A stretch of DNA of 45,111 bases from an uncultured Prevotellaceae bacterium (lineage in GTDB: Bacteria > Bacteroidota > Bacteroidia > Bacteroidales > Bacteroidaceae). Below are positions 16,768 through 44,910 of this stretch, in pieces. The notes below the pieces were generated by a model, which saw only the letters and a list, made by a program, of their open reading frames with translations, ran no database searches and had not been told where the DNA came from. Every line of letters begins with the position of its first letter. The stretch's first letter is position 1. A program made the translations under genes and the position numbers. The stretch covers positions 1 through 45,111 of the forward strand of contig CAMVIM010000030.1 in the NCBI GenBank assembly GCA_947167515.1, written 5' to 3'.

Positions 16768-17853
16768 GTGCAAGAAAAGTTTTTTCAACTCCTGCGATAC
16801 ACGCTTGACAAGGCTCATGCCCTTCCTAGCGAAATGTCTGATGGGGAGTGGAGGATGCTTTTGGAGATAGCCCAGCAGCAGTCACTGTTGGGTTTGTTGT
16901 TTGATGGCATTCAACAGTGGATGGAGAAGGCTGAAGCACACATCAAACCACCCAAGGATGTGTTGCTCAAGTGGTTCTCCATCAGTGAAAGACTCAAGGA
17001 CAGCAATAGAAAGGCTAATGCTGCCTGTGCTGAAGTGGCAAGGCTTTTTGCCAAGAGCGGTTTCCGAACCTGCATCCTCAAGGGGCAGGGCAATACGCTG
17101 AACTATCCAAGTCCGTTCGTCAGGACGAGCGGCGACATCGACCTGTGGGTGGAAGGTGGAGCGAACAGAGTGCTGGATTTTCTGCGTGGCAAGCGTGTAT
17201 GTGGTCATGTGGCTTACCATCATGCAGATGCTGGCTCTCACAAGGGAATAGCAGTGGAGGTACACTACCGCCCCTCATTCATGAACAATCCTGTCCATAA
17301 CAAGCACATGCAGGAATGGTTCAGGAAGGTGCAGGAGGAACAGTTCTCCCATGAAGTGCATCTGCCGGAAGAGGAAGGATGGGTATGCGTACCAACTTAT
17401 GCTTTCAACCGCATCTATCAACTGGCACATATCTATAAGCATATCATACAGGAAGGCATTGGCCTTCGCCAAATCATCGACTATTACTTTGTGCTGAAGC
17501 AGGGATTTACGGAGGAGGAACGGGTACATGATGAGCGTTTGCTGAAGCACTTGGGTTTGTATAAGGTCGCTTCGGCGTTGATGTGGGTGCTCAAGGAGAC
17601 GTTGGGATTGGACGAGAAATATTGGTTGGTGGCACCTAATGAGAAGGTGGGACAATTCCTGTTGGAAGAGATTATGCTGTCGGGGAACTTCGGACAGTAT
17701 GACCAGCGGGTGAAGCATGGGGCATCGCCATGGGAGAAGAACCTCCAGCGCCTCCAGCGTGATTGGCGGCTCATGTGGTACTTCCCTTCGGAATGTCTGT
17801 GGGAACCCCTCTTCCGATGGTATCACTTCTTCTGGCGGTTGCGCCACAAGTGA
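16768..17853 (+). CDS. nucleotidyltransferase-fold protein (NTP_transf_5)
   Basis: A 361-residue soluble protein whose start FFQLLRYTLDKAHALPSEMS is typical of the PF14907 family found in capsule and lasso-peptide-like loci. The nucleotidyltransferase core shows ILKGQGNTLNYPSPFVRTSG followed by DIDLWV near residues 95-125, including the aspartate pair. IYQLAHIYKHIIQEGIGLRQ and DYYF (about 215-240) are the conserved helical block. GTG 16768 is the best start, as no ATG is available upstream in frame. The substrate is unknown. A 96-bp internal piece of this gene (17555-17650) is duplicated at 19232-19327. Confidence 0.8.
   Translation: MQEKFFQLLRYTLDKAHALPSEMSDGEWRMLLEIAQQQSLLGLLFDGIQQWMEKAEAHIKPPKDVLLKWFSISERLKDSNRKANAACAEVARLFAKSGFRTCILKGQGNTLNYPSPFVRTSGDIDLWVEGGANRVLDFLRGKRVCGHVAYHHADAGSHKGIAVEVHYRPSFMNNPVHNKHMQEWFRKVQEEQFSHEVHLPEEEGWVCVPTYAFNRIYQLAHIYKHIIQEGIGLRQIIDYYFVLKQGFTEEERVHDERLLKHLGLYKVASALMWVLKETLGLDEKYWLVAPNEKVGQFLLEEIMLSGNFGQYDQRVKHGASPWEKNLQRLQRDWRLMWYFPSECLWEPLFRWYHFFWRLRHK
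17555..17650 (+). repeat. 96-bp duplicated segment, source copy
   Basis: This part of the NTP_transf_5 gene is repeated in the same orientation at 19232-19327 with one difference (AAGGAGACG here, AAGGAAACG there). As it is in frame inside the intact gene, this is the parental copy. Confidence 0.9.
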
Positions 17854-17874: not shown

Positions 17875-18040
17875 TACTCAACTTTGACTACGTCGAGCTA
17901 AAGGTTCGCAAGTTGAGTAGAAAGGAAAAGAAAGGAAAAGGAGTTAAAAGGAATAGAAAGGACGTCACTCATTAGCAATGACATTTGTCCCTTTAACTCC
18001 ACAAAAGTGAAGCTTGCGAAACTTTATTAAGTTTCGGAAG
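17875..18040. repeat. inverted-repeat element C
   Basis: TACTCAACTT (17875-17884) and AAGTTGAGTA (17910-17919) form a perfect stem around a TTTGACTACGTCGAGC box, which matches 25611-25635 at 23 of 25 positions. A purine-rich AAAGGAAAAGG run follows. Then comes ATGACATTTGTCC with CTTTAACTCC, the reverse of words in element A. A small perfect hairpin CGAAACTT/AAGTTTCG lies at 18017-18036. It contains no gene. The rest of 18041-18280 shows nothing coding. Confidence 0.65.
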
Positions 18041-18280
18041 TTCCAAACGCTTCATTTTCAACAACGAATAAAGCGAATCATTCTAATTTACCATGCGGCG
18101 AGAAGATGTATTTTCCTAATGCCGCAAGCGGCAACGAATGGAATCGAATGGCTACACTCAGCATTCGTTTTTATTCGTTGCACCCTTGGGTGCATTGTGC
18201 ATTGTATAAATTCGTCATATTCGAAATATTCGTTGTTGAGAAAAACATCCGAAACTTGAGTAATATAATTATAACACAGA

Positions 18281-19172: not shown

Positions 19173-19241
19173 ATGTCATTTACAAAACGACTACATACTC
19201 ACTTGGGCATTGATACAAACCTGATATTGGAGTTTGTATAA
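19173..19241 (+). pseudogene. truncated second PIN-like gene
   Basis: A 22-codon frame begins MSFTKRLHTHLG and goes on IDTNLILEFV before a stop. The DTNLILEF words match the N-terminal PIN motif of the intact toxin (DTNIIMEF). The stop arises exactly where the 96-bp duplicate of the NTP_transf_5 gene begins (19232), so insertion of the duplicate appears to have cut the gene. Nothing of the remaining PIN domain follows. Confidence 0.6.
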
Positions 19242-19327
19242 GGTCGCTTCGGCGTTGATGTGGGTGCTCAAGGAAACGTTGGGATTGGACGAGAAATATT
19301 GGTTGGTGGCACCTAATGAGAAGGTGG
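19232..19327 (+). repeat. 96-bp duplicated segment, inserted copy
   Basis: A copy of 17555-17650 (95 of 96 identical), outside any intact gene. It joins the truncated PIN remnant on the left to the last codons of the minus-strand BASS transporter region on the right. The low divergence suggests a fairly recent event. Confidence 0.9.
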
Positions 19328-25608: not shown

Positions 25609-25789
25609 AGTTTGACTTCGTCAAGCTAAAGGTTCTTGAAGTTAAAGAAGTTAGAGGAGTTAAAGAAGTTAGAGACGAATGTCATACTGCTGTTTCCATT
25701 GTCAGAAGGTATCGTCTTTAACTTCTGAACGAAGCGTTAACTTCTTTAACTCCTATAACTTCTACAACTTGCGAAAGTCGAGTTAACTG
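25609..25789. repeat. inverted-repeat element A (no gene inside)
   Basis: It starts with a TTTGACTTCGTCAAGC box (25611-25635). The left arm (25638-25682) is built of GAAGTTARA words and ends in AGACGAATGT. A 25-bp centre follows. The right arm (25708-25770) starts GGTATCGTCTTTAACTTC and runs TTAACTTCTTTAACTCC. The arms are imperfect reverse complements and could fold as a long hairpin. The same arm sequences flank the four-helix-bundle gene at 27022-27546. Confidence 0.75.
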
Positions 25790-25799
25790 TTTGTTTTTA

Positions 25800-26993
25800 T
25801 TACTTCAGTCTAGCCAGCGTATCCTTAATGCGCTTCATCGACTCGACGATGTTTTCATCGCTGGTGGCATAGCTCATGCGGAAACATTCAGGAGAGCCAA
25901 AGGCATCACCACCTACGGTTGCCACATGTCCCACTTCGAGGAGGTACATGGCGAAGTCGGTGGAGTTGTTGATGACGCGGTCACCGTCTTTCTTGCCAAA
26001 GTAGCTGGAGCACTTGGGGAAGAGGTAGAACGCACCTTGTGGGTTGTTCACTTCAAGACCAGGAATCTCCTTGGCGAGTTTCACGATGAGGTTCTTGCGA
26101 CGTTCGAATGCCTGACGCATGTCCTCCACACACTGCTGGTCGCCAGCGAAAGCGGCCTCGGCAGCCTTCTGAGAGACTGAGCAGGGACCAGAGGTGTACT
26201 GACCTTGCAACTTGTTGCAGCCCTTCACAATCCATTCGGGAGCCGCAATGAACCCGATGCGCCAACCTGTCATGGCGTATGCCTTCGACACACCGTTGAT
26301 GACCACCACACGGTCTTTGATGTCGTCGAACGAAGCCATTGAGGCATGCTTGCCCACATAGTTGATGTGCTCGTAGATTTCGTCGGCAATGACAATGACA
26401 TTCTCATGCTTCAGGAGCACATTCTTCAGACCTTCCAGTTCTTCCTTGCTGTACACAGAACCCGTTGGGTTGCTGGGTGAGCAGAGGATGAGTGCACGGG
26501 TCTTGGGGGTGATGGCAGCTTCCAACTGGGCAGGGGTGATCTTGAAGTCCTGCTCGATGGGTGCATCGATGAACACAGGAGTGCCCTCGGCCAACAGCAC
26601 CATCTGAGGATAGCTGACCCAGTATGGAGCAGGGATGATGACCTCGTCACCAGCATTGATGATGGCCATGATGGCATTGCAGACAGACTGCTTGGCACCA
26701 TTAGAACAAAGAATCTGAGAGGGTTTGTAGTCCAATCCGTTCTCGTTCTTCAGTTTGTTCACGATGGCCTGCTTCAGTTCTGGGTAGCCAGGCACAGGGC
26801 TGTAGCGGCTCCAGTTGTCCTCCACAGCCTTGATGGCGGCCTTTTTGATGTGGTCGGGAGTGTTGAAGTCGGGTTCACCGACACTCAGGTTAATCACGTC
26901 CACGCCCTGAGCCTTCAGCTCGGAGCTCTTCTGACTCATGGCAAGAGTGGCAGAAGGGGAAAGTCTGTTAAGACGGTCTGATAGTTGTTCCAT
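25800..26993 (-). CDS. aspC: aspartate aminotransferase, class I
   Basis: A cytosolic PLP enzyme of 397 residues that exchanges amino groups between aspartate and 2-oxoglutarate. It belongs to the I-gamma type found in Bacteroidetes and Thermus. LSVGEPDFNTPDHIKKA (36-52), YSPVPGYPELKQA, the CSPSNPTG loop (171-178), DEIYEHI (204-210), the PLP lysine K237 in NGVSKAYAMTGWR and the C-terminal FRMSYATS arginine are all present. It sits between two repeat elements and seems to be a single-gene unit. Substrate range may include other amino acids. No TAnnTTTG box is visible upstream. Confidence 0.92.
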   Translation of the reverse strand: MEQLSDRLNRLSPSATLAMSQKSSELKAQGVDVINLSVGEPDFNTPDHIKKAAIKAVEDNWSRYSPVPGYPELKQAIVNKLKNENGLDYKPSQILCSNGAKQSVCNAIMAIINAGDEVIIPAPYWVSYPQMVLLAEGTPVFIDAPIEQDFKITPAQLEAAITPKTRALILCSPSNPTGSVYSKEELEGLKNVLLKHENVIVIADEIYEHINYVGKHASMASFDDIKDRVVVINGVSKAYAMTGWRIGFIAAPEWIVKGCNKLQGQYTSGPCSVSQKAAEAAFAGDQQCVEDMRQAFERRKNLIVKLAKEIPGLEVNNPQGAFYLFPKCSSYFGKKDGDRVINNSTDFAMYLLEVGHVATVGGDAFGSPECFRMSYATSDENIVESMKRIKDTLARLK

Positions 26994-27021
26994 ATTATAT
27001 TGAATTTTGATAGTTATTTCT

Positions 27022-27546
27022 ATAGAAGTTAAAGAAGTTATAGAAGTTATCGCTTCGCTTAGAAGTTAGAGACGAATGTTTTTAATCATCTGTTATTCCC
27101 TTATTGTCTTTGATGGCTTGGCAGTAGGCATTTAGGACAATGCTTGCCTCCTCTATTTTTGCCCACATATAGTTGGCTGTTTCTTCTGAGTAGTACCCAA
27201 CATCATGACTGAGGACGATGTAATAGCGGCACTCTTCTAATGAGCCTTGTGCAGTATTAAAAAAGCGTAGTTTATCACTTTTTGAGAGTTTCTTGTACCC
27301 CTCAGCTATGTTAGCCGCAATGGATATCGCTGCTCTTTGAAATTGCGGCACCAACGCAAATTTCTCATCGTCAGGAAACATGGACTTTGTCTGATAGAAA
27401 GCCAACACAAACTCGTGTGCTCGTTTCCATGCTGCAACTTCTTTGAACGTTGTGCTTGCCATTTTTGTGTTTTGGAATATTCGTGTTAAGGAGTTTGGTA
27501 TCGTCTTTAACTTCTCTAACTCCTTTAACTTCTCTAACTTCTTTAT
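27022..27546. repeat. inverted-repeat element B enclosing a gene
   Basis: The left arm (27025-27079) has GAAGTTAAAGAAGTTATAG, then CGCTTCGCTTAGAAG, and ends AGAGACGAATGT. The right arm (27497-27545) starts GGTATCGTCTTTAACTTC and continues in TCTAACTCC words. Both arm ends are those of element A, but here the four-helix-bundle gene replaces the 25-bp centre. The CGCTTCG interruption is also found in the right arm of element A, in reverse. Confidence 0.7.
27082..27462 (-). CDS. four-helix bundle protein (23S rRNA IVP-like)
   Basis: A 126-residue protein of the family first found in intervening sequences of 23S rRNA genes (PF05635/TIGR02436); relatives include the Avd accessory protein of retroelements. 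Typical blocks are FKEVAAWKRAHEFVLAFYQ near the N-terminus, FALVPQFQRAAISIAANIAE (about 44-63), GYKKLSKSDKLRFFNTAQGS and LEECRYYIVLSHDVGY. It probably forms a basic pentameric bundle that binds nucleic acid. ATG 27462 is the natural start; the longer frame upstream would read through repeat DNA. Its flanks are two arms of an inverted-repeat element also found without a gene at 25609. No promoter was recognised, so transcription may come from ribBA. Confidence 0.88.
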   Translation of the reverse strand: MASTTFKEVAAWKRAHEFVLAFYQTKSMFPDDEKFALVPQFQRAAISIAANIAEGYKKLSKSDKLRFFNTAQGSLEECRYYIVLSHDVGYYSEETANYMWAKIEEASIVLNAYCQAIKDNKGITDD

Positions 27547-27550
27547 CCTT

Positions 27551-28768
27551 TTATTTATTGAAATGCAATGTATGTCCCATACGCTCCTTCTTCGTGTGGA
27601 GGTAGCGCTCGTTGTAGGGGTTGGGGGTGATTTCGATAGGCACGTTCTCCACGATTTCGAGTCCATACCCTTCCAATCCTACACGCTTCACGGGGTTGTT
27701 GGTCAACAGGCGTATTTTGCTGATGCCGATTTCTCTGAGGATTTGGGCGCCCACACCATAGTCGCGCAAGTCGGGGTCGAAACCGAGGTGAATGTTGGCA
27801 TCCACCGTGTCGAGCCCCTGCTCCTGCAATTTGTAGGCGGCAATCTTGTTCATCAATCCGATGCCTCGTCCTTCCTGAATGAGATAGACCACTGCACCCT
27901 TGCCCTCCTTCTCAATGAGCTGCATGGACTTATGCAACTGTTCTCCGCAGTCGCATCGCTGACTGGCAAAGATGTCGCCTGTGGCACAACTGGAGTGCAT
28001 GCGCACCAACACGGGCTCGTCGGGCTTCCATTCCCCCTTGATGAGTGCCACATGCTCCAGTCCGTTGCTCTTCTGACGGAAGGGGATGATGCGGAAGTGT
28101 CCGTAAGCTGTGGGCATATCGGCCTCCACACCTTTCTCCACCAGGCTCTCACGCTGCAGGCGATAGGCGATGAGGTCTTTGATTTGGATGAGTTTCAACC
28201 CCAACTCCTCGGCTTTCTTGATGAGTTCGGGCATACGCGCCATCGTACCGTCGGGATTGAGAATCTCGATGAGGGCGGCAGCGGGACGCAGACCTGCCAA
28301 ACGTGCCAAGTCGATGGCGGCCTCTGTGTGGCCTGCACGACGCAGCACACCGTTGTCCTGTGCATAGAGCGGATTGATGTGGCCAGGACGTCCAAAGTCG
28401 CTGGACTTCGCCTCGGGATTGGCCAGCCATTGGATGGTGGCGGCACGGTCAGCAGCACTCACGCCCGTGGTGCAGCCCTCCAGCTTGTCCACCGTCACGG
28501 TGAAAGGAGTGCCGAGCATGGAGGTGTTATCCTCCACTTGATGGGGCAACTCCAGTTCCTTGGCACGTGAGATGGTGATGGGTGCGCAGAGTACGCCACG
28601 ACCCTCGCGTAGCATGAAGTTCACCTTGTCGGGGGTGATTTTCTCGGCGGCTATGATGAAGTCGCCCTCGTTCTCACGGTCTTCATCGTCCACGACAATC
28701 ACGAACTTTCCCTCTCGAAAGTCCTCTATAGCCTCTTCTATCTTACTGAACTGAAAGGATTTTTTCAT
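27551..28768 (-). CDS. ribBA: bifunctional DHBP synthase / GTP cyclohydrolase II
   Basis: Performs two early steps of riboflavin synthesis. The N-terminal domain (about 1-205) turns ribulose 5-phosphate into dihydroxybutanone phosphate, and the C-terminal domain (about 206-395) opens [15 protein letters not shown] (27-38) and [17 protein letters not shown] belong to the RibB active site. [17 protein letters not shown] holds the three zinc cysteines of RibA (C-x10-C-x-C), and [14 protein letters not shown] follows. At 405 residues it is of normal fused length. Its start overlaps the end of the LptF/G permease gene by 26 bp, so the two are one transcript. No FMN riboswitch was seen upstream, as the start is inside the upstream gene. 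Confidence 0.95.
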
Positions 28769-37839: not shown

Positions 37840-38847
37840 ATGGCTTTAATAGAAAGTATTATTGCGCGTGCAAAAGCAAACAAGCAGCGCATTGTGCTCC
37901 CCGAATCGCTGGAGGAGCGCACTCTGACTGCCGCCGACAAGAGCCTTGCCGACGACATTGCCGACATCATCCTGATCGGCAATCGTGACGAAATTTTTGC
38001 ATTGGCTGACAGGTTGGGTCTGAAGAATATTGGTAAGGCCACCATCATTGACCCTGCCACTTCGGAAAAGACGGAGGAATACGCTCAACTGCTGTTCCAG
38101 CTGCGCCAGAAGAAGGGCATGACTATTGAGAAGGCACGCCAGCAGGTGCTCGACCCATTGTATTTCGGCTGCCTCATCATCAAGAGCGGCGATGCAGACG
38201 GACAAATCAGCGGTGCGCTCTCAACTACGGGCGACACGCTTCGTCCAGCCTTGCAGATTATCAAGTGCGCTCCTGGCATCACCTGCGTGAGTGGTGCGAT
38301 GCTGCTTATCACCCAGACTCCGCAGTATGGCGAGGGGGGCGTGCTCGTGATGGGCGATGTGGCTGTGACCCCGATGCCAGATGCTGCTCAGTTGGCTCAG
38401 ATTGCTGTCTGCACGGCTCAGACCGCCAAGAGTGTGGCAGGATTTGCTGACCCACGTGTGGCGATGCTGTCGTTCTCCACAAAGGGCAGTGCCAGGCATG
38501 AGGTGGTGGACAAGGTCGTGGAAGCTACTCGTCTGGCCAAGGAACTCGATCCAGCTTTGAAGATTGACGGTGAACTGCAGGCAGATGCTGCTTTGGTTTC
38601 ATCGGTAGGTCAGAAGAAGGCTCCGGGCAGCGAGATTGCTGGAAAGGCCAACGTGCTCGTGGCTCCTTGTCTTGAAGTGGGCAACATCGCCTACAAGCTC
38701 GTGCAGCGACTTGGCAATGCCGATGCTATTGGCCCTATCCTTCAGGGTATTGCACGACCTGTGAACGACCTTAGTCGTGGCTGTTCAGTAGATGATATTT
38801 ACAAGATGGTGGCCATTACGGCTTGCCAAGCTCAAGACGCAAAGTAA
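37840..38847 (+). CDS. pta: phosphate acetyltransferase
   Basis: Converts acetyl-CoA and phosphate to acetyl phosphate and CoA, in the cytosol. The 335-residue protein has only the catalytic PTA/PTB domain, without the long N-terminal regulatory half of E. coli Pta (714 residues). RIVLPESLEERTL near the start, DGQISGALSTTGDTLRPALQ (about 120-140), and FSTKGSARHEVVDKVVEAT (about 208-228) are all standard. ATG 37840 follows the promoter by 30 bp, and a longer in-frame extension to 37744 would precede the promoter, so it is rejected. ackA follows after 9 bp. Together they make ATP during fermentation. Confidence 0.95.
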   Translation: MALIESIIARAKANKQRIVLPESLEERTLTAADKSLADDIADIILIGNRDEIFALADRLGLKNIGKATIIDPATSEKTEEYAQLLFQLRQKKGMTIEKARQQVLDPLYFGCLIIKSGDADGQISGALSTTGDTLRPALQIIKCAPGITCVSGAMLLITQTPQYGEGGVLVMGDVAVTPMPDAAQLAQIAVCTAQTAKSVAGFADPRVAMLSFSTKGSARHEVVDKVVEATRLAKELDPALKIDGELQADAALVSSVGQKKAPGSEIAGKANVLVAPCLEVGNIAYKLVQRLGNADAIGPILQGIARPVNDLSRGCSVDDIYKMVAITACQAQDAK

Positions 38848-38856
38848 AAAGATAAA

Positions 38857-40053
38857 ATGAAGAAAATTTTGGTACTTAACTGCGGCAGCAGTTCTATTAA
38901 ATATGCATTGTATGACATGACCGACCAGAGTGTGATTACCTCTGGTGGTATTGAGAAGATTGGTTTGCCCGACTCGTTCATTACGGTGAAGTTGAACGGG
39001 GAGAAGCATAAGATGGAAAAGCCTGTGAAGGAGCATACGGCTGGTGTTCAGTGGATTTTCGAGGTGCTCACGCAGGGCGAATATGCCGTGCTGAAGAGTC
39101 TCGACGAGCTGGATGCTGTGGGTCACCGCATGGTGCATGGTGGCGAGAAGTTCAATAAGTCCGTGTTGCTTACTCCTGAGGTGATGGAGGCATTCGCAGC
39201 CTGTAACGACTTGGCTCCACTGCACAATCCTGCCAACATCAAGGGTGTGAATGCGGTGACAGCTCTCCTGCCTAACATTCCACAGGTGGGTGTATTCGAT
39301 ACCGCTTTCCATCAGACGATGCCTGACTACGCTTATATGTACGCCCTGCCATACGAGCTCTACACGAAGTATGGTGTGCGTCGTTATGGTTTCCACGGCA
39401 CCAGCCATCGTTATGTGAGTCAGCGTGTGTGTGAGTTCTTGGGAGTGAAGCCCGAAGGCAAGCGCATCATCACCTGCCACATTGGTAACGGTGCCTCCAT
39501 CGCAGCCGTGAAAGATGGCAAGTGCGTGGATACGTCCATGGGTCTCACCCCGCTGGAAGGTCTCATCATGGGTACGCGTTCGGGTGACATTGATGCCGGT
39601 GCAGTAACTTTCCTGATGGACAAGCTGAATCTCGACACGAAGGGCATCAGCAACCTGTTGAATAAGCAATCAGGTCTCTTGGGCGTGAGTGAAGGTTTCT
39701 CTGACTTCCGCGACATCCTTGCTGGCATCGCAAATGGAAATGATAAAGCACGTCTGGCCAAGGACATGTACTGCTACCGCATTAAGAAGTACATTGGTGA
39801 GTATGCCGCCGCTATGGGTGGTGTGGACATCATTCTCTTCACAGGCGGTGCTGGCGAGAACCAGTACGAGGTACGTGAGGGAGCCACACAGGGCTTGGAG
39901 TTCATGGGCATCAAGCTTGACGATGCCAAGAACAAGGCTTGCCGTGCGAAGGAAGCCATCCTCTCCGCCGATGATTCAAAGGTCGTCATCTGCTGCATCC
40001 CTACGGATGAAGAGCTGATGATTGCACTGGACACATTGGAACTGACTAAGTAA
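38857..40053 (+). CDS. ackA: acetate kinase
   Basis: Makes ATP and acetate from acetyl phosphate; the second step of the pathway started by pta, 9 bp upstream. The 398-residue protein has the ASKHA-fold motifs LVLNCGSSSIKYALY (5-19), VGHRMVHGG with its arginine, FDTAFHQTMP near 148, GFHGTSHRYV, HIGNGASIAAVKDGK and FTGGAGENQ. All match the family with normal length. Cytosolic. A simple-word inverted repeat follows and may end the transcript. Confidence 0.96.
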   Translation: MKKILVLNCGSSSIKYALYDMTDQSVITSGGIEKIGLPDSFITVKLNGEKHKMEKPVKEHTAGVQWIFEVLTQGEYAVLKSLDELDAVGHRMVHGGEKFNKSVLLTPEVMEAFAACNDLAPLHNPANIKGVNAVTALLPNIPQVGVFDTAFHQTMPDYAYMYALPYELYTKYGVRRYGFHGTSHRYVSQRVCEFLGVKPEGKRIITCHIGNGASIAAVKDGKCVDTSMGLTPLEGLIMGTRSGDIDAGAVTFLMDKLNLDTKGISNLLNKQSGLLGVSEGFSDFRDILAGIANGNDKARLAKDMYCYRIKKYIGEYAAAMGGVDIILFTGGAGENQYEVREGATQGLEFMGIKLDDAKNKACRAKEAILSADDSKVVICCIPTDEELMIALDTLELTK

Positions 40054-43805: not shown

Positions 43806-44812
43806 GAAATTGTTTGCTTTTCACTTTGGTGGTTCTGCTTTTCTCCTCTTGTGTGAAGGAAGACTATTATGACAATTCCAGGCAGGGTAACTACGAAGCC
43901 TTGTGGCGTATCATGGACGAGCACTACTGCTTCTTCGACTACAAGAAGGAGGAACTCGGAGTCGATTGGGACGAAGTGCATGCACGTTATGCTCGTCAGG
44001 TGAACGAGGGCATGAACAACATCCAGCTCTTTGAGGTGCTTTGCAACATGCTCGCCGAACTGCAAGACGGGCATGTCAACCTCAGTGCCTCCTTCGACTT
44101 TGGACGCAACTGGAGTTTTTATGAAGACTATCCTGAGAACTACAACGACAGCATTGCTAAGCTCTACTTGGGGCATAACTACATGATAGCCTCGGGACTC
44201 AAGTATGTCATTCTCGACGACAACATCGGCTATGTGCGTTGCGAGACTTTCGAAGACGGCATCGGCAATGGCAACGTGAGTTCCATGCTCAACGTCCTTT
44301 CTTCTTGCAATGGACTCATCATCGATGTGCGCGGCAATGGTGGAGGTCAACTCACCAATGCCGAGAAACTGGCCTCCCACTTCACCAACGAGCCCATCCT
44401 GGTCGGCTACGTGTCCCACAAGACCGGCAAGGGGCGCAACGACTTTTCCACTCCCCAAGCCGTCTATCTCGACCCCGCCACCGATGGCATCCGCTGGCAG
44501 AAGTCCGTCGTGGTGCTCACCAACCGCGCCGTCTATTCCGCCGCCAACGACTTTGTCAAGTGCATGAAACTCTGCCCCAACGTCACCATCATGGGCGACC
44601 GTACAGGCGGTGGCTCCGGCATGCCCTTCAACAGCGAACTTCCCAACGGGTGGACCGTCCGCTACAGTGCAGTCATCTTCTACGACAAAGACATGCAGCA
44701 CACAGAGTTCGGCATCGACCCCGACATCTCACTGTCATTGTCAGGTGCAGACATCCTGCAAAAGAAAGACACCTACATAGAAAAAGCGCGGGCGTTTTTG
44801 AGTGAAAAATGA
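43802..44812 (+). CDS. S41 family peptidase, lipoprotein
   Basis: A C-terminal-processing-type serine peptidase of 336 residues, anchored as a lipoprotein: VVLLFSSC puts the lipid on Cys17. AELQDGHVNL (86-94) is the N-terminal helper motif. GLIIDVRGNGGGQ (171-183) and LTNRAVYSAANDF carry the catalytic Ser246; the DRTGGGSGMPF loop follows. No PDZ domain is clear, so it is closer to the tricorn/IRBP-like short forms. The start at 43802 gives the lipobox at the right distance; the longer frame from 43754 does not. Its last codons (SEK and stop) lie within the inverted repeat at 44801. Confidence 0.9.
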   Translation: MRNCLLFTLVVLLFSSCVKEDYYDNSRQGNYEALWRIMDEHYCFFDYKKEELGVDWDEVHARYARQVNEGMNNIQLFEVLCNMLAELQDGHVNLSASFDFGRNWSFYEDYPENYNDSIAKLYLGHNYMIASGLKYVILDDNIGYVRCETFEDGIGNGNVSSMLNVLSSCNGLIIDVRGNGGGQLTNAEKLASHFTNEPILVGYVSHKTGKGRNDFSTPQAVYLDPATDGIRWQKSVVVLTNRAVYSAANDFVKCMKLCPNVTIMGDRTGGGSGMPFNSELPNGWTVRYSAVIFYDKDMQHTEFGIDPDISLSLSGADILQKKDTYIEKARAFLSEK

Positions 44813-44910
44813 AGAGTGAAAAATGAAAAATCTAAGTCTCCTTTGCTGATGGAAACACTCTGGATGGCGAGTAACTTAGATTTTTCACTTTTCACTCTTC
44901 ACTTTTCACT
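44801..44910. repeat. 36-bp-arm inverted repeat
   Basis: Left arm 44801-44836 and right arm 44875-44910 are reverse complements with two mismatches, built of AGTGAAAAATGA-type words and ending in AATCTAAG. The 38-bp loop has no obvious function. The left arm overlaps the end of the S41 gene, and the right arm is 9 bp from the tRNA-Leu promoter box. Confidence 0.85.

Follow-up and report, generated by a model that had tools for sequence, protein, structure and literature searches.

A gene of the IVP family, a small family familiar chiefly from insertions in rRNA genes, lies between ribBA and aspC in an uncultured Prevotellaceae bacterium. It is framed by complementary arms and, together with them, very probably constitutes an insertion element. 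Comparison with other IVP loci suggests that such genes reside in paired-arm elements that come and go between the genes of gut bacteria, an overlooked kind of mobile DNA. The protein family and the anatomy of a stem with an ORF inside it are known; the operon-borne setting, the variable tandem arms and the gene-less copies appear to be new. The window referred to below is the whole stretch of DNA that was analysed, 45,111 nucleotides in length.

An IVP gene and its arms between ribBA and aspC

The product of the 126-aa gene scored 106.1 bits against the PF05635 profile (23S_rRNA_IVP), for which the curated cut-off is 33.8, and is thus a member of this family; a relative in the PDB is 2gsc (6.1e-15). 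Its neighbours are ribBA (27551-28768) and the aminotransferase gene aspC (25800-26993), and all three genes lie on the (-) strand. Read in the sense direction, the element consists of an arm of GAAGTTARA-like units, GACGATAC, the IVP gene, ACATTCGTC and a complementary arm (Table 1), with GACGATAC and ACATTCGTC being core ends common to the members of one sub-family. The earlier note had described the gene as framed by a left and a right arm, and 27021-27049 does pair with 27508-27536, over 29 nt and with 90% complementarity. Reading its arm words as a fixed terminal repeat was wrong, and fixed terminal repeats were rejected, since the sequence of the arm units differs among loci. The 551-nt strand of the gene-bearing element folded with a z of -5.9 relative to shuffles, and its complementary ends form a stem with the ORF in the loop, as in an intervening sequence (IVS) of rRNA. 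An IVS also lies within a 23S rRNA gene. No rRNA match was found anywhere in the window, or in the 20 loci scanned of 30 in a phylum sample of IVP loci, and the gene is flanked by ribBA and aspC; insertion into rRNA was therefore rejected and the element is not filed as an rRNA intervening sequence. A defence label was likewise rejected, as PADLOC gave no match for the IVP protein.

Table 1. Positions of the IVP element, its gene-less relatives and the pta|ackA junction in the window
Feature	Position	Strand	Basis or remark
IVP gene, 126 aa, four-helix-bundle family	27082-27462	(-)	PF05635 E=1.4e-30, TIGR02436 E=8.7e-28
5' arm (sense direction), purine-rich, GAAGTTARA-like units	27507-27545	(-)	inverted repeats and position
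3' arm (sense direction)	27021-27049	(-)	inverted repeats
Upstream core end, GACGATACC in sense; GGTATCGTC at these positions	27497-27505	(-)	
Downstream core end, ACATTCGTCT in sense; AGACGAATGT at these positions	27070-27079	(-)	
Gene-less relative, arms 25639-25671/25738-25770, core 25674-25716	25609-25789	(-)	
Second gene-less relative, core 17961-17989, shorter arms, weak fold	17880-18040	(+)	
Gene-less hairpin, GTGAAAA-type arms, ATCTAAGT core ends	44801-44910	(+)	fold z -10.3
Gene-less hairpin like flanks of GxxExxY gene L413	18055-18248	(+)	
pta|ackA junction, short in source genome	38848-38856	(+)	

Arm pairing and tandem units at IVP loci

Arm pairing was scored at 112 IVP loci, 76 from the genus and 36 from other families of the order, as the best pairing of the 200 nt upstream with the 200 nt downstream. 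The set comprised 32 of the 34 loci found first (the long, weak ORFs L004 and L005 were omitted) and 80 chosen from a longer list. The profile start was substituted where no ATG lay near it (L017, L027, L193, L215 and L221), and at two loci with internal stops (L157 and L182) the flanks were taken from the first in-frame stop, giving low scores. Mean pairing was 21.0 within a locus versus 9.05 between loci, so that the pairing is specific to each locus, in support of the stem-framed architecture proposed at the outset. Scores of at least 14 were found at 58 of the 76 genus loci and 21 of the 36 others. In 400 kb of the source genome, by comparison, 3 of all 274 ORFs had flanks at this level: both IVP genes, with 24.0 and 22.0, and a single further ORF with 14.0, which is 1 of the 272 ORFs that are not IVP genes. 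The between-locus 99th percentile (22.3, a value inflated by orthologous loci) was exceeded at 42 of 76 genus loci and 9 of 36 others, and by 12 of the 30 best-scoring IVP loci that made up the phylum sample. The earlier note had asked whether the gene always lies between arms: it does so at 54 of 78 non-redundant loci, while the remaining 24 are armless by the measure used, so that exceptions occur and are not the rule.

The arms are built of short tandem units, mostly heptamers. Self-match averaged 0.70 versus 0.45 in shuffles, the tandem signal lay beyond 95% of shuffles in 42 of 51 IVP arms, and 7 nt was the modal period, found in 33 of the 51. In 400 kb of the source genome there were 25 inverted repeats scoring at least 20, versus 0 in one Markov shuffle, and the two of these with loops of more than 400 nt both contain IVP genes. 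The IVP genes tend to lie in the direction of their neighbours: at callable loci, the upstream gene was co-directional in 49 of 51 cases, the downstream gene in 62 of 63 and both in 41 of 44. Both neighbours were co-directional in 23 of 27 cases in the phylum sample. Two loci from distant relatives (L330 and L353) appeared by eye to carry IVP elements inside a gene and not between genes. The two omitted loci (G000:C59 and C72) have ORFs of some 220 aa that match IVP weakly and only in part; such ORFs recur in the genus and are perhaps a separate family.

Presence and absence at orthologous sites

For the ribBA|aspC junction, 45 genomes of the genus were searched, and the sequence was examined at the 30 best aminotransferase loci. 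The IVP gene was present in the source genome only, the other 29 junctions being free of it; many of these are short spacers and some others are repetitive spacers. The site is also empty in RUG418, a rumen Prevotellaceae whose aminotransferase is 98% identical. When the core of the gene-less copy at 25609-25789 was sought within 400 nt downstream of aspC, it too was found only in the source genome and at none of the other 29 loci. A second case is the IVP element of genome G027 (L174), which stands where its sister G006 has a 22-bp junction between flanks that are 97% and 92% identical; the matching site in G006 holds neither IVP gene nor arms. Arms and gene are thus present as a unit in one genome and absent from relatives at two sites, which bears out the insertion-like nature proposed in the earlier note. 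At the G006/G027 site, the sole close empty site for a gene-bearing element, no target duplication was seen, and no movement event was observed. CCTCCCC-rich palindromic repeats occur at junctions of other genomes, both ribBA|aspC (L126, L131, L135 and L143) and pta|ackA (L365, L369, L382 and L384).

Gene-less copies in the window and across the genus

The same two words that end the arms around the gene, AGACGAATGT and GGTATCGTC, had been noted at 25609-25789 around only 25 bp, and this was confirmed; RNA of 25634-25775 folded with a z of -7.1 relative to shuffles. A third relative had been placed at 17875-18040. Its core is 26/29 identical to a core found in other genomes, which upholds the relationship, but the arms are shorter and the fold of 17880-18040 (z of -0.87) is no better than that of shuffles. 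The hairpin at 44801-44910 has arms and ATCTAAGT core ends of types that surround IVP genes in other genomes. The hairpin at 18055-18248 matched the two flanks of the GxxExxY gene L413 with scores of 34.5 and 31.0, the maxima in 400 random stretches being 16.0 and 22.5. The same part of the window has a 96-nt direct repeat, 99% identical, with one copy within a nucleotidyltransferase gene (17555-17650), the other after it (19232-19327) and a PIN-domain gene between the copies.

In the source genome, the arm word of the window matched 94 times with up to 2 mismatches (overlapping matches counted), compared with 2 matches for the reversed control, and at each of 13 sites inspected the arm was faced by a second one across a short core. 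The core pattern GACGATAC-N-ACATTYGTC had 76 matches in 18 of 45 genus genomes and a second, AAATCTAAGTNAC-N-GTNACTTAGATTT, had 52 copies in 11 of 45, with 0 for the reversed control in both cases. The second core also frames the IVP genes L185-L187. Since gene-bearing and gene-less copies have core ends in common, and reversed control patterns gave 0, the gene-free derivatives anticipated in the earlier note are well supported as relatives. In 20 gene-less copies from 9 genomes, the arm units differed among genomes; these copies were picked by core pattern, so that the likeness of their cores follows from the selection and only the differences in their arms are informative. Cores of the window type were present in 9 of the 11 genomes that have a sub-family IVP gene and in 7 of the 26 that have none (Fisher test, p=0.0034), the genomes being drafts of unequal completeness and the sets compiled by hand. 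The gene-less copies are short and multi-copy, with inverted ends and no coding capacity, as are MITEs, and they share their ends with IVP-bearing elements, IVP not being a known transposase. From their sequences they look like non-autonomous, MITE-like derivatives.

Evolution of the protein and the arms

Arm similarity and protein similarity were correlated (rho 0.184, reached in 0 of 500 permutations) over 5729 non-orthologous pairs of 5778, from the 108 loci that had sufficient residues (L157, L182, L190 and L193 were dropped). Because the two similarities correlate among non-orthologous pairs, the arms appear to travel with the IVP gene but to change faster. L033/L160 and L161/L168 occupy two unrelated sites and have like arms despite this; protein identity is 87% and 83% for the pairs within a site and 83-89% across the two sites. 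L151/L162 and L164 share one site, and their IVP proteins are only 21-22% identical and their arms different. L001 and L026 have similar IVP proteins (0.78 of the self score) and different arms. In the same 108-locus set, dN/dS was 0.03-0.16 in 13 IVP pairs with more than 60% identity and pS of 0.3-0.75; very close pairs, with few changes, gave 0-0.51 and distant pairs 0.21-0.54, with 49 pairs listed and the rest not computable. Substitution patterns of this kind indicate that the IVP protein is under purifying selection.

GxxExxY genes and the pta|ackA junction

GxxExxY genes (PD-(D/E)XK), which are unrelated to IVP, also lie within arms of similar style, so that the paired-arm architecture is not specific to IVP. 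At the 30 best GxxExxY loci, arm pairing was 17.5 within versus 9.1 between loci and was at least 14 at 17 of them; both neighbours were co-directional in 10 of 11 cases. The tandem signal was weaker than in IVP arms, with 9 of 17 arms beyond 95% of shuffles and a period of 9 in 10 of 17. For a GxxExxY protein, PADLOC gave a single match, and a weak one (8.5e-4). Classed by eye in 30 genomes, the pta|ackA junction held IVP genes in 5, GxxExxY genes in 4, CCTCCCC-type palindromes in 4, another insert with a short palindrome in 4 and tandem units only in 7, and was short in 6, including the source genome. The junction (38847-38857 in the window; loci L357-L386) is therefore a recurrent insertion site that has taken up several unrelated kinds of insert across the genus. 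At L362 (G014) and L372 (G003), a GxxExxY gene follows a left arm of GTGAAAA/ATCTAA type, as if an element had inserted into an element.

A model for the elements and competing explanations

The elements are best read as intra-operonic relatives of rRNA intervening sequences, a kinship that the protein family and the anatomy of the Coxiella IVS indicate and that agrees with the intergenic, insertion-like relative envisaged in the earlier note. The reading that we favour in full is that of a small insertion element with tandem-unit arms, core ends and, in sense within an operon, a single IVP gene; it is held with moderate confidence because its movement is a step that we infer. Read-through transcripts would adopt the shape known from rRNA intervening sequences, a stem whose loop contains the IVP gene, and could be trimmed by RNase III, processing as in rRNA being possible by analogy. 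The IVP protein would then bind the hairpin or the core and, with the help of host enzymes, promote the copying of elements to new sites, its action being in cis or, where the copy is gene-less, in trans. That IVP is a mobility factor we infer only tentatively.

Mismatches in the arms bear on how their pairing is kept. In IVP arms there were 62 G·U and 83 A·C mismatches (p=0.096), and in 19 gene-less copies 25 and 21. There is thus no G·U excess in either, which leaves selection on an RNA stem unsupported and suggests upkeep at the level of DNA, a view for which we consider the chances to be even. Template switching between arms is a mechanism of quasi-palindrome correction. Taking place during DNA replication, it would keep the arms complementary while their units drift.

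It is less probable, and on the whole unlikely, that the hairpins came first, as palindromic tandem-unit repeats moved by another agent (perhaps a DDE transposase), with IVP and GxxExxY as passengers that entered their loops. Such an origin would fit the greater number of gene-less than gene-bearing copies, the presence of the window-type core even where no IVP gene of the sub-family exists (7 of 26 genomes), the two unrelated gene families in like arms, and the similar IVP proteins of L001 and L026 in different arms. However, the hairpin is missing along with the gene at both empty sites examined, arm type follows IVP protein similarity, each IVP sub-family has core ends of its own, and the period is 7 in IVP arms versus 9 in GxxExxY arms. 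It is very improbable that the IVP genes are a fixed part of the host genome, with hairpins that serve regulation as attenuators or mRNA stabilisers, and have undergone many losses rather than gains, since, despite the co-directional position in operons, the purifying selection (dN/dS of 0.03-0.16 in 13 pairs) and the strong folds, 29 of 30 ribBA|aspC junctions have no IVP gene, IVP proteins of 21-22% identity occupy one site with different arms (L151/L162 versus L164), near-identical gene-less copies lie at many sites, and G·U pairs are not in excess.

Relation to known systems

In the Coxiella IVS, as described in an excerpt of the published account, a 28-bp stem has an ORF in its loop and tandem heptamers before the start codon (PMC4990558). 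The window element resembles this 23S rRNA IVS with its S23p/IVP ORF in the protein family, the ORF between inverted arms and the heptamers before the start, and the IVS is thought there to be selfish or mobile, as is proposed here for the window element (PMC4990558). Unlike the 23S rRNA IVS, window-type elements lie between protein genes, have varied arm units, occur in several copies per genome and have gene-less relatives. Excision by RNase III is known for the 23S rRNA IVS and would apply to the window element by analogy only.

MITEs such as BrickBuilt of Porphyromonas gingivalis are likewise intergenic and multi-copy, have inverted ends with tandem repeats inside and contain no transposase; in the excerpt available, BrickBuilt has 23-nt repeats and IS-like ends (PMC4596501), whereas in the window elements it is the arms that are made of the repeats, and an IVP gene is present in the presumed parent. 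REP/RAYT systems also consist of short palindromic intergenic repeats, and CGTC-tagged REPs too are described, in the part of the account consulted, as having no known transposase (PMC3733652). The arms of the window elements are longer and tandem, and PF01797 (Y1, REP-associated transposase) had 0 matches in the source genome (98.85% complete) while matching in 5 of 14 control genomes, so REP/RAYT was rejected. The Avd protein of diversity-generating retroelements is distantly related (NF033474, 1.5e-7, 31.6 bits versus a cut-off of 80). A retroelement with Avd was rejected, as PF00078 (reverse transcriptase) had 0 matches in the source genome, with 18 of 41 genomes matching. The search of the source genome for mobility enzymes covered Y1 transposases and reverse transcriptases only.

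Implications

More than 25 years after the discovery of IVP-coding intervening sequences, an excerpt of PMC4990558 describes it as unclear where they come from, how they spread and what they are for. Among open-licence papers, preprints excluded, no account was found of intergenic IVP elements that sit in operons, have tandem arms of variable sequence and are accompanied by gene-less copies. It is possible, and we suggest it with some reserve, that IVP and GxxExxY elements form one class of mobile element that has no known transposase, with a single gene in locus-specific tandem arms (units of 7 and about 9 nt, respectively) set in sense within operons. Their gene-less derivatives would then make up a large share of the palindromic intergenic repeats in these bacteria, the rRNA IVS would be a special case, an element inserted in rRNA, and the mobility protein proposed in the 1990s would be IVP. 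Because copies lie between protein genes, are missing from matching sites of sister genomes, exist with and without the gene and recur within a genome, their movement, the processing of their RNA and the function of the protein become testable. If the elements do move without a known transposase, this would be a new mechanism of mobility and would explain a common class of intergenic repeats.
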